NCBI GenBank assembly: GCA_024683485.1
Contig: JAIKYD010000113.1
Coordinates: 1 to 64,000 of the forward strand
Reading direction: 5' to 3'
Origin: Saccharofermentans sp.
GTDB lineage: Bacteria > Bacillota > Clostridia > Saccharofermentanales > Saccharofermentanaceae
Length of the DNA stretch: 64,000 nucleotides
The position numbers and the translations under genes were made by a program. This document shows, piece by piece, positions 8,187 to 62,763 of this stretch. The notes under the pieces are model-generated. The model did not search any database, had not been told where the DNA came from, and saw nothing but the letters and a program-made list of their open reading frames with translations. Within the stretch, counting starts at the first letter, position 1; each line of letters starts with the position of its first letter.

Positions 8187-9196
8187 TGGACGTTCTGAGA
8201 TCCGTCGGCAATTATATAGTCAATTCTTTTAAATATCCTAAGCCTTATAACTGGGGATATCCGGTATTCTTCGGTGCTGCGGGGTTCGGCATCTCATACC
8301 TTATACTGAAACTGATGTTTTCCGGAGCATTTCCTTTCTCGTCAACATCTTTGATCGGATGTTCAGTTATAGTAATCCTGACTGTGATGTTTGCGTTTGT
8401 GACACCGGCTGTCCTGATCGCGGAGAAGGGCGGACTCTACATCACAGGACGCTATACAGGGATCGGTGCGCTGATCCTGTCTTTTCTGTCAGGCGCACCT
8501 ATATATCTGATAAAGGCTTCATTCCATAATATTTCGCTTGCGCTTTGGCTGAAGAGCGGTGGTACCGTTGTGTTCCCTGAGATTTTTTATATCTCTGAGG
8601 GAATAACCGGTCAGACGTTGCTTCTTGAGTTCCTTATAGATACGGTTATTCCGGCATTTGGATTATCGCTTTTCTTTCTCGGAGCTGTATGGCAGGGGTT
8701 CAGCGATAAAAACAGACGGTGGGCATTTGTCATTATCCCGGTGCTGATTGCGCTTTTCTCATTTGATTTTATAGATATCATTGCCATTCTCCTTATCGGT
8801 TGGTGGCTTTGTGTAGTACGCAATCACACCGAGAATATCTATGGACCGGTCCTGGCTTTGATCGGGGCGCGTTTTACAGGTCTTCTGATAGACGGTATTG
8901 TCGGTGAGATCGACCTTACGACTGTAAGAGTATACAGCGATATTCCTAATACCATTTATTTCTCATCAATCCCGGCACTTGTTGTGGCTTTGATACTGCT
9001 GGCGTTCTTCAGAAAGACACTGGGTGAATTCCATTTTACTTACAGTGCCGATATCTATGGAGACGAGAGACAGCCGGAAGTTAAGGATGGCGGCAAGGCC
9101 GGCGGATTCTTCTCCGGTGTTAATCTGACACTGATATTGGGGATTGCAATCTGTGTTGTACTGTGGATAGTATTGTTTGAGGGTATTAGAATTTAA
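8186..9196 (+). CDS. Polytopic membrane protein of unknown function
   Basis: I do not recognise the family. The 336 residues are very hydrophobic, with roughly eight or nine predicted membrane spans and a short charged stretch (YGDERQPEVKDGGK) before the last span. The ATG overlaps the stop of the prepilin peptidase by one base, and an AI-2E family gene follows after 15 bases, so the three form one operon. The coupling suggests a partner role with the peptidase, but no motif shows it. Confidence 0.7.
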   Translation: MDVLRSVGNYIVNSFKYPKPYNWGYPVFFGAAGFGISYLILKLMFSGAFPFSSTSLIGCSVIVILTVMFAFVTPAVLIAEKGGLYITGRYTGIGALILSFLSGAPIYLIKASFHNISLALWLKSGGTVVFPEIFYISEGITGQTLLLEFLIDTVIPAFGLSLFFLGAVWQGFSDKNRRWAFVIIPVLIALFSFDFIDIIAILLIGWWLCVVRNHTENIYGPVLALIGARFTGLLIDGIVGEIDLTTVRVYSDIPNTIYFSSIPALVVALILLAFFRKTLGEFHFTYSADIYGDERQPEVKDGGKAGGFFSGVNLTLILGIAICVVLWIVLFEGIRI

Positions 9197-9211
9197 CAAG
9201 AGGATTAAGCG

Positions 9212-10465
9212 ATGGATAAGAGCTCCAGAAATCTTAGTGATATCGAGAGATACAGGCGTGACCGAGCGTCTGTTATGTCGATGCTCAAGTTTATCCTCGC
9301 GGTCATTATAATTGTCGCGTTCTGCTATGTGGGCAAGGTCGTTGCTGTTATACTTGTTCCTTTTCTGATAGGTTTTTTGCTTGCAAAGACATCTGTTCTT
9401 GTTGCCAAACCGGTATCGAAGCTCTTCGACAGGGAACCCTCGAAGATCAGCTCAGCAAAGAAGAAGTCAATTCATACAAAGACTGCTCTTGTTATCTATG
9501 TAATCCTTCTTGTGTTTGTGGTATTCATCATTGTTCTTACATTCATCGGTCTGGTATATCAGGCTAACAGCCTGCTTGTGACCATTGCTGATGCAACAAG
9601 AAGCTTCAAACCGACGGAAGTAATAAACTCACAGGTTCTTGAAAGGTTCAGCGTTGATAACGGCGGTTTCCTGACACCCGATATGATTGAGTCGCTCAAA
9701 GAGAATATCACCAATATGGGACAGACTGTTGTTAAGAATATTCCGCAGCTCATCAGTTCATCGCTGTCCGCGGTATGGAAGCTTGCCGGCAATCTGCCTT
9801 ACGGGATATTCTTTGTTATCAGCATTATCCTGAGCGGATTTTATTTTATTAATGACGGTCCTGCGGTCATGAAGTTCTTTGTCAAGAACACGCCAAACCG
9901 CAAATTCCGCAACAGGATATTTACACTCCTCAACGAGCTGTCACTTATGGTCTTCCGTGTTCTCGGAGGATATTTCGCACTGTTTGTTATCACGGCAATT
10001 GAATCGTTTGTTGTATTCCTGGCTGCAGGCCAGCGTGAATATGCGATCGTGCTTGCCATTGTCACGGCCCTGATCGACTTCCTGCCGGTACTTGGAATCA
10101 GTGTAACGATGCTTCCTTTGTTTATCTATCTTCTGGTGCACGGGCAGTATGTTTCCGCGTTCATTATCGTTGTTGGTTATGTGGTCATGACGATAGTCCG
10201 CCGTTTTATCGAACCGCCGATCCTTGGCAAATCCATGCATCTGCACCCGCTTTTAACACTGCTTTCGATGGCTGCAGGTGTATATATTTGGGGTGCTCCG
10301 GGATTCCTGCTCGGACCGGTCCTTGCGATCATCATCATTCAGGCACTCAAGGTTTTCGAGATCGACAAGGCATTCGGAAGATATTTCTCCGGTATTCTGG
10401 ACAGATTTATGAAGGATAAGGATGAAGACAAGATTGAAGTTGAATCTGATAAATCATCCGATTGA
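9212..10465 (+). CDS. AI-2E family transporter (PerM/YtvI-like permease)
   Basis: Integral membrane protein of 417 residues from the large AI-2 exporter-like family. Members have been linked to solute or Na+/H+ exchange, but the substrate here cannot be told from sequence. It shows an N-terminal cytoplasmic segment, a first hairpin of spans (VGKVVAVILVPFLIGFLLAK), a long extracytoplasmic loop, and the conserved C-terminal block with ALIDFLPVLGISVTMLP, FIEPPILGKSMHLHPLLT and GAPGFLLGPVLAI. It is the third gene of the 7.3-10.5 kb operon, and a strong hairpin follows. Confidence 0.88.
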   Translation: MDKSSRNLSDIERYRRDRASVMSMLKFILAVIIIVAFCYVGKVVAVILVPFLIGFLLAKTSVLVAKPVSKLFDREPSKISSAKKKSIHTKTALVIYVILLVFVVFIIVLTFIGLVYQANSLLVTIADATRSFKPTEVINSQVLERFSVDNGGFLTPDMIESLKENITNMGQTVVKNIPQLISSSLSAVWKLAGNLPYGIFFVISIILSGFYFINDGPAVMKFFVKNTPNRKFRNRIFTLLNELSLMVFRVLGGYFALFVITAIESFVVFLAAGQREYAIVLAIVTALIDFLPVLGISVTMLPLFIYLLVHGQYVSAFIIVVGYVVMTIVRRFIEPPILGKSMHLHPLLTLLSMAAGVYIWGAPGFLLGPVLAIIIIQALKVFEIDKAFGRYFSGILDRFMKDKDEDKIEVESDKSSD

Positions 10466-56127: not shown

Positions 56128-57135
56128 ATGTCCAGTGGTGATTTTCACGGCGGTGATACCCATAGCGGAAGTTTTCACGATTCGGATATCGGCGGATCAT
56201 TTGGAGGCGGAGGAGATTACTACGGCAGTCCGGGAGATTACTATTCCGATGGCGGATCCGGGAATGCATTTTTCTCAAGTTCATCATTTATTTCAGCCGG
56301 AATATATGGACTTATCTGGCTTCTCTTTATAATCATTAATGCCAGTTTTAACTTTGTATCAGGTTTTAAAGTCCTGGATCTTATTCTTATAACTTCGGGT
56401 ATCGTTTTGCTGGCCCTGGGTATGAAGGATTATCGAAGGACCTTTGCTCTCAGTTATATAAAGAGGGGAAAGATGCCAAAGCATGAAGGAAGTGTCTGGC
56501 ACGGCAAATGTACTTTGGATGCTTTGGGTGACAGTAAGAGCTGGGCGGTTGAAGGTAAAAACCATTATCAGATCTCGTTTCTTGACGGCGAATTCGGACC
56601 GGACAATGCTGAGAAGGTTTACGACACTATGAAGCGGACACCAGGTATTATCTGGATGAACCTGGCCGTCTGGGTAGTTATAAGCGTCATAAGTATTATC
56701 TCACATGTGTTTTTCTATGAACTTATCATCCCTGCTTTTGAGAATGCAGTAATGAGCGACCAGGCGTTTGCTTTTATTGATGCTTTTACGCACTATCTGC
56801 CGTCTGTTATTGTTCTGCTCTGCGGTGCCGCCTGTTTTATCATTGTCAGGGTCAGAGACAATATTCTGCACAAGTGTGCTGTGCGTATTGCCAAAGACAA
56901 TGAGGCTGTCGAAGAAAGACTTAAAACTGAGGAATACATAGCATTCCAGCTTAGCAAAAAGTGGTATTACAATACTTGTCCTAACTGTGGTGCTGAGGCA
57001 TCGGCAACACAATCGGCCTGCAAAACATGCGGTTCCTCACTGGAGGTGCCGGATTCTGTGAAATCATATCCGGGGTCGGTTCACAGGCTGTCCAGTCCGC
57101 CGGCATCATTTTCCCCGGACAGTAATCCGGAATAA
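56128..57135 (+). CDS. Membrane protein with Gly/Ser/His-rich N-terminus and C-terminal zinc ribbon
   Basis: A 335-residue protein of unknown function. Residues 1-55 are Gly/Ser/His/Asp/Tyr-rich (SGDFHGGDTHSGSFHDSD, GGSFGGGGDYYGSPGDYY). Four spans follow: two near 58-100 and two near 175-245. The C-terminal part has a zinc ribbon (NTCPNCGAEASATQSACKTCG) and a Ser/Pro tail. The Gly-rich lead resembles the low-complexity ends of TPM-domain proteins but no TPM domain is present. It is the third gene of the zinc-ribbon trio, behind GCGAGG. Confidence 0.7.
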   Translation: MSSGDFHGGDTHSGSFHDSDIGGSFGGGGDYYGSPGDYYSDGGSGNAFFSSSSFISAGIYGLIWLLFIIINASFNFVSGFKVLDLILITSGIVLLALGMKDYRRTFALSYIKRGKMPKHEGSVWHGKCTLDALGDSKSWAVEGKNHYQISFLDGEFGPDNAEKVYDTMKRTPGIIWMNLAVWVVISVISIISHVFFYELIIPAFENAVMSDQAFAFIDAFTHYLPSVIVLLCGAACFIIVRVRDNILHKCAVRIAKDNEAVEERLKTEEYIAFQLSKKWYYNTCPNCGAEASATQSACKTCGSSLEVPDSVKSYPGSVHRLSSPPASFSPDSNPE

Positions 57136-58155: not shown

Positions 58156-58232
58156 AAATAACCTCCATTGTCATTAAGACGACTAATATTATCACGTTAT
58201 AATATAATTTGAAAAGATAGGAGGTCAGTCAC

Positions 58233-58961
58233 TTGTTATATATTCTTACGGCTCTTAAATGCGAGGCTTCAGCGCTGGGGACAATACCAGGTAAGGTTAT
58301 TGTCACTGGTGCCGGCAAAAGAGCATTGGACCGCATCATGGAAATTGAATTAACGCCTGATGACTATGTGCTTAACGTCGGAATCTGTGCCGGCGTGAAT
58401 AGGGGCAGAGGTTATCTTGTCAATCAGGTTATCTCACAGGAAACAGGCAGACGCTTCTATCCGGATATTCTTTTTGAATCAGGTGCTGATGAGAGGTCTC
58501 TTACCACATCGCCGGATATTGTTACCAAAGTGGGAGAAGACATGCTCTTCGATATGGAGTCTTCTCTGATCTGTGACAGCGTTCTGAAAGTTATTCCGCC
58601 TTCCAACCTTGCAATTTATAAAGTTGTCTCTGACAGTGGTGATAAGTTTCCGTCGGCAAATGAAGTGACTTCGATGATCAGGGAACATATAAATGAGATC
58701 AGCAGGATAGCTGAACTCCTTGTGCCATGCAGTGCAAAGAAAAGTTACCAGTTTCTGCCTGAGAGTATTCCTGAGGAGATGCATCTTACACAGTATATGA
58801 GAAATGAATTGCATGATATAGAGCATTACTGTGTTGTGGCCGGAAGAGAAAAAGAACTGCTTGGACTCCTGGATAATATGCGCGAAAAGGGCAGACTTCC
58901 TGCAACGGATAAAAAGGCCGGAAGGGAGGTTCTCGATGAGATTTACTCATATCTACGTTGA
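58233..58961 (+). CDS. Nucleoside phosphorylase/MTAN-like protein
   Basis: A 242-residue member of the purine nucleoside phosphorylase/nucleosidase family, closest in motifs to MTA/SAH nucleosidase. LNVGICAGVNRGRGYLVN is the phosphate or ribose region, MESSLICD places the catalytic Glu, and KVVSDSGDKF gives the catalytic Asp of the R-x-I-S-D-x-A-D type. The C-terminal 75 residues are an extra helical part. The start is TTG seven bases after AGGAGGT. It overlaps the radical SAM gene by 26 bases. Since radical SAM enzymes release 5'-deoxyadenosine, a nucleosidase partner is plausible. Confidence 0.78.
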   Translation: MLYILTALKCEASALGTIPGKVIVTGAGKRALDRIMEIELTPDDYVLNVGICAGVNRGRGYLVNQVISQETGRRFYPDILFESGADERSLTTSPDIVTKVGEDMLFDMESSLICDSVLKVIPPSNLAIYKVVSDSGDKFPSANEVTSMIREHINEISRIAELLVPCSAKKSYQFLPESIPEEMHLTQYMRNELHDIEHYCVVAGREKELLGLLDNMREKGRLPATDKKAGREVLDEIYSYLR

Positions 58962-59910
58962 GGAGAGAGCCTACGGGTATCCTCTTACCGGTACTATCCT
59001 TTCCGGGATTCCCGGGGCCAAAGTGGTCACGATCAGACATTATAAGGATGTTTTCGACAGAAAGAGACAGAATGCACCTTTGCAGAAAGAACACCAGGCC
59101 TTGATAATTGCAGTGAGGGACGGTAACAGGATCTTCAGGGGCGCTCCGGTTTGCCAGTCATTCGGGCAAAAGAATTTCTATTATGCGAGTTCCATGATGA
59201 ACTGCCCCTTTGATTGCGGATATTGTTATCTTAAAGGCATGTATCCTTCAAGCAATATGGTCGTCTTCGTGAATCTTGATGATTACAGAAAAGATATCGA
59301 AGACAAGATCAAAGAAGGACCGATGTATGTATGTGCGTCATATGATACGGATCTCCTGGCGATGAACTCCCTTACAGGGCATGCTGATTTTTGGAAAGAA
59401 ATGGCGCAGACGAACGGAAACCTCCTCGTCGAACTCAGGACGAAGGCTGCTGTGAATGTAACAGATAACATATCGAATGTCATCTATGCTTTTACTTTAT
59501 CTCCTGAAGAAGTGATGTTACGCTATGAACGCAATACTGCCTCCGTGGATGCGCGGATAAAGGCAGCGGCCAGAGCATTGGAAAACGGGGCAAAGGTCAG
59601 GCTTTGCTTCGATCCTGTTATCAGGATACCGGCATGGAAAGACGCATATAAAGAACTGATAGATAAGACTGTTTCATATGTTGATTTCAGTAAACTCACA
59701 GATGTGAGTGTCGGCACGTTCAGAATATCGGCTGATTATCTGACCAGAATGCGGAGGGCATATCCTGATTCTGAAATCGCATGGTATCCTTATGTCATAA
59801 AAGATGGTGTAGCACAATATGCACCTGACGCTGACAGGGAGATGCAGGAATTTGTCTGCGGACTGCTTGGAAAATATACCGGAATGGAGAGAATATTCAC
59901 ATGGAACTGA
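58936..59910 (+). CDS. Spore photoproduct lyase-like radical SAM enzyme
   Basis: A 325-residue radical SAM protein aligning along its length with spore photoproduct lyase: THIYVEERAYGYPLTGTIL at the N-terminus, the cluster C90-x3-C94-x2-C97 in MNCPFDCGYCYLKGMY, VVFVNLDDY and the C-terminal WYPYVIKDG. Where B. subtilis SPL has EASC (hydrogen donor C141) this protein has CASY, so Tyr136 replaces that Cys. It may repair another lesion or carry out a different reaction. The ATG at 58936 follows GGGAGGT within the nucleosidase gene. Its end overlaps the SDR gene by ten bases. No other sporulation gene is in the window. Confidence 0.85.
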   Translation: MRFTHIYVEERAYGYPLTGTILSGIPGAKVVTIRHYKDVFDRKRQNAPLQKEHQALIIAVRDGNRIFRGAPVCQSFGQKNFYYASSMMNCPFDCGYCYLKGMYPSSNMVVFVNLDDYRKDIEDKIKEGPMYVCASYDTDLLAMNSLTGHADFWKEMAQTNGNLLVELRTKAAVNVTDNISNVIYAFTLSPEEVMLRYERNTASVDARIKAAARALENGAKVRLCFDPVIRIPAWKDAYKELIDKTVSYVDFSKLTDVSVGTFRISADYLTRMRRAYPDSEIAWYPYVIKDGVAQYAPDADREMQEFVCGLLGKYTGMERIFTWN

Positions 59911-60593
59911 AGACAGCGGTCGTGACCGGAGCATCATCCGGCATCGGGCTTGCAATAGCTGAGATGCTTACGGAAGAGGGATATAAGGTTTATGGAATCG
60001 GCAGGATCTTTCCTGACGGATGTGATTTTTTTGAGAAACGTATATCACTCGATTTAAGAGACACGGATATCCTGCTTGAGAAGATCTCCGGGATAAAGAA
60101 GGTCGATCTTCTGGTAAATGCAGCCGGCAGCGCATATTACGGACTTGCTGAATTTAACACTCCGGATCAGATCAAGGAAATGTGCCGGACAGATATTGAG
60201 GCCCCTATGATCTTAATTTCCGCACTTCTTCCCAAACTCAAAGATTCAAAGGGCATGGTAATCAATATCGCCTCTGTCACTTCAACAAGGATAAACACTC
60301 ATGGTGCGGCATACGGTGCGCTCAAGGCAGGGCTTCGGAGTTACGGCAGAAGTCTTTATGAAGAGGTCAGGAAGACAGGTGTCAGAGTCGTTACAGTATG
60401 CCCGGATCTTACGGCCGGGACAAAATTGTACAGGAATGCCAATTTCAAACCTTCAGAAGAAGACGGATGCTATCTTGTCCCCGGAGATACTGCTGAGTGT
60501 GTCAGAGATATCATCAATATGCGCGAAGGGGCTGTAGTGACAGAAGTAGAGGTAAGACCCCAGTTCAATAGGATAGAAAAGAAGAGAACCTAA
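59901..60593 (+). CDS. Short-chain dehydrogenase/reductase
   Basis: Classical SDR of 230 residues, using NAD(P)H on an unknown substrate. The cofactor motif is TGASSGIGLAIAEML, followed by LLVNAAGSAYYG. The active-site Ser lies in NIASVTSTR, and Y-x-x-x-K is YGALKAGLRSYGRSLYEEV. It overlaps the radical SAM gene by ten bases, so the three genes from 58233 are one translationally linked unit, and its substrate is likely tied to the radical SAM product. The end of the protein is short, without a dimerisation extension. Confidence 0.9.
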   Translation: MELKTAVVTGASSGIGLAIAEMLTEEGYKVYGIGRIFPDGCDFFEKRISLDLRDTDILLEKISGIKKVDLLVNAAGSAYYGLAEFNTPDQIKEMCRTDIEAPMILISALLPKLKDSKGMVINIASVTSTRINTHGAAYGALKAGLRSYGRSLYEEVRKTGVRVVTVCPDLTAGTKLYRNANFKPSEEDGCYLVPGDTAECVRDIINMREGAVVTEVEVRPQFNRIEKKRT

Positions 60594-60648: not shown

Positions 60649-62763
60649 ATGGGCACCTCGGTAAAGGAAAGCAAACTCTATTCGTTCTTTAAGGCTGTTA
60701 TAACAGTCTTTGGTTTTGCGGTCTGTTTCTATCTGATGATCCTGGGTATGACCGGATCCTATAGACTTATATGTGATATTGGGAATAAGAGGGTTCTTTT
60801 CCTGAATCCGGTCTTAATTCTTATAGCCGCAGTGGCAGCAGTTTTGACGGCAGGTGTTTTGGCTGCCAGATCTTCCCGTGTTAAGGCTTATCTGTCAGGA
60901 TTTGAAGATGAACAGCGCTTCAAACGTACTGTAACTGTGCTTAAGGCAGTTATCTTTATTGAATGTGTCCTTTTTGCTGTAATGGCTTTCGGCATGAATC
61001 AGCGGCTGGATCAGTACAGTGTCCAGTATTCCGCTTATGGTCTTTCCTGGAATGTGGCAGAGACTTTGACACCTCCCAGACATCTCGGAGTGTATCCGAA
61101 CAATACTGGAATAGTCCTGATATTATATTTGCTGAGTTTTGTAACCGGTCACTACAACAATGCCGCTTATTTGCTGATCATGGCAATGTTTGTGCCTTTT
61201 ATCTATTCTGATCTGGCTGAAATAGGAGGAATGTTCGGCCTTTCGCGCAAATCACGGATCATGATACTTGTAACGGGATTATTCTTCTTCCCTTTGCAGG
61301 CTAAGGTCACGATGGTATATGGAGATATTCCCGGACTGTTTTTTGCAGTTAGAGCAATGAAGCATGCAGCAGAGATTGCTTCCGGTAAATGCAAAACAAA
61401 GAACATAGCTGTTGTCATAGGCTTTGCTTCGGCAGCATATGTGTTCAAGAACAATTACATAATATTTGCAATCGCTATTGTTCTCTATCTTATGTTTGAG
61501 TTTTTACGGCAGCGCAGATTTAAAGAATTATTGATTCCGTTAGCAGTTTTAGTTATGCCTGTGCTTTCGGGTTACTGCATCAAGCTGATTACAGGCGCAG
61601 TTATTGGCGGTCAGGTTTCTTCGGGAGCATCCAAGCTTTCCTGGATTGCGATGGGAATGCAGGAAAACGCGGGAATGTTCAATGGTTTTAATGATGTGAC
61701 TTATGCTGAGTCAGGTTTTGATACTGCCGTCCAGTCTGAGGTAGCCAAAACGGAAATAACCGCGAGATTGAAGAGTTTTCTTGCAGATCCGAATCAGGCA
61801 ATAGGTTTTTATGTGAGAAAAGTCATGGCCCAGTGGACAGATCCGACTTACAGTGCATTTGATTTTATCTGCAGGAATGTTTATCTGTATGGCAATGCTT
61901 CTCCGTTATTATGGGCAGTAACAAATCCTAAGGTGATAAGAGCATTATCGTCATTCCTTAAGCTTTTTCAGATAATGATGCTGACCGGAACCGGTGTTTG
62001 CTCCATAAAAGAAGCACGCAGGAAAACGGGCTCACCGGCATTGCTTCTGATCGTAACTTTTATCGGGGGATTCTTTTTTCATATGATCTGGGAGGTCGCA
62101 CCAACCTATGCGATGCCGTATTCGGTGATAATAATACCAACCGGTGTATCAGGCATTATCTCTGTCATTAAGAAACTCTCAACGCTGAAAAAGAAAGAAC
62201 TTTCAAATATCCGAATTCAGATCAGCGCTTCCGGTATTGTGTTTTTTGCAGCAGGAACACTGGTGTTCCTGCTTGCAGCTGCGGGAATAGGAACTATCAG
62301 GCAGATCCTGGCTGACGGACGGGAAGAATACAGGATGTTTTTTAATGAGACGCCGCAACGCGCTAGAGATCCGGTTGAGGAAGGAACGTATTACCTGAAG
62401 CCTGCACTTGAAGGTTATGAAGGGGATGGCCTTGAGGTAATGCTGATAAGATATGCCGGCAAATACAGAATGCGGATGATCATCGATGGCAGTGAAGACG
62501 AGATCTATCTGACTAATGTCAGAGGTAAGATCAAAGCTGACTGGAATTCCAGCAATGAAACACAGGTTTTTGTTATTTTCAGGAACATTGACGGAACATA
62601 CTCGATTTGTCAGGATGTGTCCGGAGCTGTGGCTATGGATCCTGAATCCGGTATGGTCATGGGTGAGTTTGTTGATTATACAAACCAGTTTGGCAGTCAA
62701 AAGTATGATGAATTTGTTGCCGGGCATCCGGAAATGACATGGAATCTTGTTCCTGCATCCTGA
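60649..62763 (+). CDS. GT-C-type membrane glycosyltransferase-like protein
   Basis: A 704-residue protein with about 12 membrane spans (20-550) and a soluble C-terminal domain. The pattern of a first outer loop with NAETLTPPRHLGVYPNN-like sequence and long loops around GFNDVTYAESGFD fits GT-C enzymes that take sugars from polyprenyl phosphate outside the membrane. I cannot see the usual catalytic Asp-Asp/Glu pair with confidence. The last 120 residues (EEGTYYLKPALEGYEGDGL) look like a ricin-type beta-trefoil or other beta domain. No ribosome binding site precedes the ATG. It lies 55 bases after the SDR gene and may be separate. Confidence 0.7.
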   Translation: MGTSVKESKLYSFFKAVITVFGFAVCFYLMILGMTGSYRLICDIGNKRVLFLNPVLILIAAVAAVLTAGVLAARSSRVKAYLSGFEDEQRFKRTVTVLKAVIFIECVLFAVMAFGMNQRLDQYSVQYSAYGLSWNVAETLTPPRHLGVYPNNTGIVLILYLLSFVTGHYNNAAYLLIMAMFVPFIYSDLAEIGGMFGLSRKSRIMILVTGLFFFPLQAKVTMVYGDIPGLFFAVRAMKHAAEIASGKCKTKNIAVVIGFASAAYVFKNNYIIFAIAIVLYLMFEFLRQRRFKELLIPLAVLVMPVLSGYCIKLITGAVIGGQVSSGASKLSWIAMGMQENAGMFNGFNDVTYAESGFDTAVQSEVAKTEITARLKSFLADPNQAIGFYVRKVMAQWTDPTYSAFDFICRNVYLYGNASPLLWAVTNPKVIRALSSFLKLFQIMMLTGTGVCSIKEARRKTGSPALLLIVTFIGGFFFHMIWEVAPTYAMPYSVIIIPTGVSGIISVIKKLSTLKKKELSNIRIQISASGIVFFAAGTLVFLLAAAGIGTIRQILADGREEYRMFFNETPQRARDPVEEGTYYLKPALEGYEGDGLEVMLIRYAGKYRMRMIIDGSEDEIYLTNVRGKIKADWNSSNETQVFVIFRNIDGTYSICQDVSGAVAMDPESGMVMGEFVDYTNQFGSQKYDEFVAGHPEMTWNLVPAS

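Follow-up and report, generated by a model that had tools for sequence, protein, structure and literature searches.

A spore photoproduct lyase-like radical SAM enzyme encoded with a nucleosidase-fold partner in Saccharofermentans and other anaerobic bacteria

The window analyzed in this work is a 64,000-nucleotide stretch of DNA from a Saccharofermentans-like genome of rumen origin. At positions 58233-60593 it carries three forward-strand genes, encoding a nucleosidase-fold protein (NUC), a radical SAM enzyme resembling spore photoproduct lyase (SPL) and an SDR oxidoreductase (Table 1). The ORF listing agrees with the initial annotation on this arrangement and on the overlaps of 26 and 10 nt between consecutive genes, and the overlap sizes are unchanged in essentially all of the ~30 closest loci. 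The overlaps suggest that the three proteins are translated together, and all three genes are under purifying selection when compared with relatives (pN/pS ~0.11-0.28). The SPL-like frame extends in the ORF listing to a GTG at 58831; however, conservation and the ribosome binding site favour position 58936, where the start was placed. The TATAAT-type promoter match lies 30 nt 5' of NUC, and the number of such matches in the region is close to the shuffled mean.

Table 1. Features of the NUC-SPL-SDR locus (window positions)
Feature	Coordinates	Strand	Remarks
Promoter-like TTAAGA-18-TATAAT	58174..58203	+	in the 77-bp gap to divergent trpS; consensus match only
NUC, MTAN-fold nucleosidase	58233..58961	+	242 aa, TTG start, AGGAGG upstream
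SPL-like radical SAM enzyme	58936..59910	+	324 aa, ATG start, GGGAGG upstream
SDR oxidoreductase	59901..60593	+	230 aa, TGASSGIG and YxxxK motifs

A gene for a 704-aa membrane protein lies 55 nt 3' of SDR (60649-62763) and is syntenic in relatives; its product has no clear family in Pfam or NCBIfam. Similar zinc-ribbon membrane proteins are encoded at 56128-57135 of the window and at L173:405-1211, the latter adjoining a phosphorylase-superfamily gene.

The first gene product had been proposed to be an MTAN-type nucleosidase, and the family-level evidence bears this out. In a single-sequence search the window NUC had no match in Pfam or NCBIfam; 40 of 55 members of its family match PF01048, the family profile matches MTANs in the PDB (E 8.5e-13) and the AlphaFold model aligns with MTAN at Z 19.6. 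The MTAN fold occupies residues 1-166 and is followed by a C-terminal helical module (residues 167-242). E11, G50, D78 and E109 do not vary among 55 diverse NUCs, and D134 varies little, being present in at least 90% of the full-length proteins. By alignment, E11, E109 and D134 appear to be the equivalents of the MTAN catalytic Glu12, Glu174 and Asp197, and NUC keeps catalytic residues of the MTAN type in most genomes. A YPD segment (76-78) is also conserved, and its invariant Asp is not assigned to MTAN catalysis. Thus NUC resembles MtnN/Pfs (PF01048, CT263) in its fold (residues 1-166) and in the catalytic Glu, Glu and Asp positions, but differs from it by a shortened core, the invariant YPD, the loss of the catalytic core in several lineages and the extra C-terminal helical module, for which no fold was matched in a whole-model search.

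The closest fold match of the AlphaFold model of the SPL-like protein (pLDDT 96) is Geobacillus SPL (Z 33, 313 residues), followed by an enzyme at Z 15.5. The window protein carries CPFDCGYC at residues 90-97, and the CX3CX2C cluster cysteines, Tyr96 and Cys73 are each invariant in all 156 SPL-like sequences; residue 98 is Tyr in 124 of them and Phe in 32. Cys73 aligns with a Cys of the canonical clostridial SPLs which we take to be the hydrogen donor C74, the conserved Cys of the Clostridium acetobutylicum enzyme (PMC5368176). Through this residue the family would retain the hydrogen-donor Cys expected of an SPL. The position of the Geobacillus donor C140 is mostly Tyr in the SPL-like alignment; we considered whether this meant loss of SPL chemistry and dropped the idea, since C140 is absent from the canonical clostridial SPLs as well, and these carry a Cys where the family has C73. 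The fold, the cluster motif, Tyr96, the aligned Cys and K170, E198 and R207 are common to the SPL-like family and SplB (PF20903, TIGR04070; PDB 4fhc).

However, structural identity to SplB is only 19-20%, and the window protein, which matches PF20903 above the cut-off, reaches 57.5 bits against the 400-bit cut-off of the TIGR04070 SPL equivalog. In canonical SPL a basic C-terminal hairpin acts in lesion binding. Its motif, GX[YF]G..[KR]Y, was found in 0/142 SPL-like sequences as opposed to 15/20 canonical clostridial SPLs, and the SPL-like alignment has a 7-residue gap at the hairpin site. The median pI is 6.2, compared with 8.6 in the canonical clostridial enzymes. Compared with 20 of the latter, the SPL-like family has E166 for R, R168 for V, A185 for R, R222 for G and G260 for I, of which E166, R168, R222 and G260 are family-specific. 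In the tree the two groups form separate clades with full support, albeit over long branches. Unlike SplB, the SPL-like enzyme also has a dedicated nucleosidase partner and no tie to sporulation.

The third gene product belongs to the SDR superfamily: the window protein matches PF00106 (1.9e-30), and TGxxxGxG and YxxxK are conserved among 121 aligned SDRs. The neighbourhood of the SPL-like gene was examined in a set of 170 loci with some redundancy. In 166 of these the gene just upstream is NUC or a remnant of it; SDR lies downstream in 130 and is missing in 36, the remainder being cut by contig ends. In 16 further loci from outside the class, NUC is present in 14 and SDR in one. At L209, L232 and L233 no NUC could be detected beside the SPL-like gene. 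In the loci compared, no pathway gene beyond the trio recurs and the wider flanks track taxonomy.

Moreover, NUC and the SPL-like enzyme form a single protein in L031-L035 (597-625 aa), L067, L079, L083, L084, L161, L219 and L220, and in L213 the SPL-like enzyme is fused to a reduced NUC. The fusion lineages are Saccharofermentans, Lachnospiraceae, family f12 and Fusobacterium; parsimony gives six changes on the tree, of which well-supported branches force only one. The functional link between the genes that had been suggested is thus strengthened by repeated NUC-SPL fusion and by a gene order that is kept in different genera and classes and in one other phylum, which takes conservation of the neighbourhood well past close strains. 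The proposed three-gene unit holds for its NUC (or remnant)-SPL core but not for SDR. The unit is therefore NUC (or remnant)-SPL with an optional SDR, presumably an accessory step, and even the nucleosidase core is dispensable in several lineages.

Indeed, the DME and SD active-site stretches of NUC have been lost, with YPD and the C-terminal module kept, in the f56 genomes (L080, L081, L194-L198), L056/L199, L204, L215 and L218. The reduced NUC of L213 retains only YPD and that of L217 only the C-terminal part. The reduced pair L194/L197 is under purifying selection (dN/dS ~0.17). The loss of the core, set against the persistence under selection of other segments, suggests from the sequences that NUC also serves the SPL-like enzyme as a structural, non-catalytic partner. 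The TIGR01704 housekeeping MTAN was searched for in 12 genomes of the family and is not recognisable in 11 of them; the window genome instead encodes SAH hydrolase and PNP. The housekeeping MTAN is present in 11/11 genomes with a reduced NUC, and relatives with an intact NUC often have it too. An association between loss of NUC catalysis and presence of this enzyme (11/11 as opposed to 22/53) was suggestive but was not retained, since phylogeny confounds it and an independent-pairs test had no power.

By protein search, 104 of the 115 family genomes and 110 of the 188 genomes of the order carry the SPL-like gene; some of the sampled contigs are metagenome-assembled and possibly incomplete. A loose-threshold search of the class gave matches in 104 of 391 genomes, with bimodal scores: those below ~1e-55 correspond to the SPL-like family and those above ~1e-17 to canonical SPLs. 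Both enzymes are present in ~10 genomes of the class. The family also occurs in other Bacillota outside the class and in Fusobacterium vincentii, and the hosts of the cassette are anaerobic gut, rumen and heat-loving bacteria, both spore-formers and non-spore-formers. No relative of the cassette was found among the viral contigs searched, PADLOC gave no match for any of the three proteins and PHROGs gave generic SDR matches only. The SPL-like frame of L216 (genome G706) carries two TAA stops and is probably a decaying copy.

The initial annotation had favoured a role other than spore DNA repair, and the distribution agrees with it: SpoIIIAF is absent from 12/12 tested genomes of the family, the same 12 as for the housekeeping MTAN, all of which carry the cassette, and Fusobacterium carries it as well. 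Since the cassette is also found in genomes with SpoIIIAF, it does not exclude sporulation but is simply not tied to it. Spore DNA repair is thus an unlikely role, given these SpoIIIAF-less hosts, the missing hairpin motif, the less basic protein and the family's own invariant charged residues. The window's genome also encodes a 179-aa orphan (L171:1411-1950) that has a Spo0A_C-like match but lacks a receiver domain.

We tentatively propose, at a little under even chances, that the NUC-SPL core is a radical SAM cassette whose components form a complex that carries out radical chemistry on a non-duplex substrate, with NUC removing 5'-deoxyadenosine. The SPL-like enzyme, bound to NUC, would cleave SAM at the [4Fe-4S] cluster and abstract a hydrogen from a substrate other than the thymine dimer of duplex spore DNA, as the lack of the hairpin motif and the family's own charged invariants suggest; this substrate would most likely be small, charged and nucleoside- or nucleotide-like. 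The invariant Cys73 could return the hydrogen. NUC would grip its partner through the YPD segment and the C-terminal helices and hydrolyse the freed 5'-deoxyadenosine, relieving product inhibition, and SDR, where present, may perform a follow-up redox step.

It has been reported that radical SAM enzymes are inhibited by 5'-deoxyadenosine, which MTA nucleosidase cleaves (PMC8102628). Thus, a dedicated and sometimes fused NUC is best read as combining product removal, which is plausible, with structural partnership. The lack of a recognisable housekeeping MTAN in 11 of the 12 family genomes also speaks for this reading. The division of labour is likely the same as that between biotin synthase and MtnN, although MtnN helps biotin synthase as a housekeeping enzyme, whereas NUC is dedicated, adjacent or fused. 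In lineages with a reduced NUC, a nucleosidase role is excluded. On the prevailing view, canonical SPL regenerates SAM; if the SPL-like enzyme does so as well, there would be no 5'-deoxyadenosine for NUC to remove. Somewhat doubtful, but worth considering, is that this is an undescribed type of two-component radical SAM system, in which an SPL-fold enzyme with a new nucleoside- or nucleotide-like substrate has an obligate nucleosidase-derived partner that repeatedly lost catalysis and was retained as a structural subunit.

Two other functions would take NUC away from 5'-deoxyadenosine or the SPL-like enzyme back to DNA, and we regard both as unlikely. The slightly better placed is DNA or nucleotide repair in vegetative cells, in which the SPL-like enzyme would reverse a thymine-type lesion of another kind and modified nucleosides would be cleared by NUC and SDR. 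The full-length SPL fold, the match of Cys73 to the C. acetobutylicum donor in the alignment and the shared K170, E198 and R207 agree with it, as does the presence of the DNA polymerase I gene downstream in one family, but the lost hairpin motif, the lower pI and the invariant residues that differ from canonical SPLs do not, and the polA neighbourhood is limited to that family (f123, outside the class; directly 3' of NUC-SPL in L221-L224 and L234). Alternatively, NUC could act on the substrate or product of the SPL-like enzyme in the salvage or biosynthesis of an unusual nucleoside, finished by SDR. The three-gene order kept in many Clostridia and Fusobacterium and the additional invariant Asp of NUC would suit such a route; however, some lineages do without SDR and some without the nucleosidase core, which fits poorly with an obligate linear pathway, and YPD outlasts the catalytic core and so looks structural. 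An ordinary SPL operon with incidental neighbours is very improbable, since the PF20903 match and the fold similarity to Geobacillus SPL are outweighed by the low equivalog score, the strongly supported separate clade, the coexistence of both enzyme types and the SpoIIIAF-less and Fusobacterium hosts.

Our literature search, with subscription papers outside its coverage, found no description of the cassette. If the proposed NUC-SPL function is correct, common anaerobes of gut, rumen and thermophilic type use SPL chemistry outside spore DNA repair, through a radical SAM enzyme with a dedicated and sometimes fused nucleosidase partner. Finding the substrate is a testable problem, for which the invariant residues are targets for mutation and the natural fusions should purify easily. 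A fused NUC-SPL of 623 aa (L220:7110-8981) followed by SDR (9194-9910) is encoded in a record of Fusobacterium vincentii that bears the label of a 2.1 Mb plasmid.
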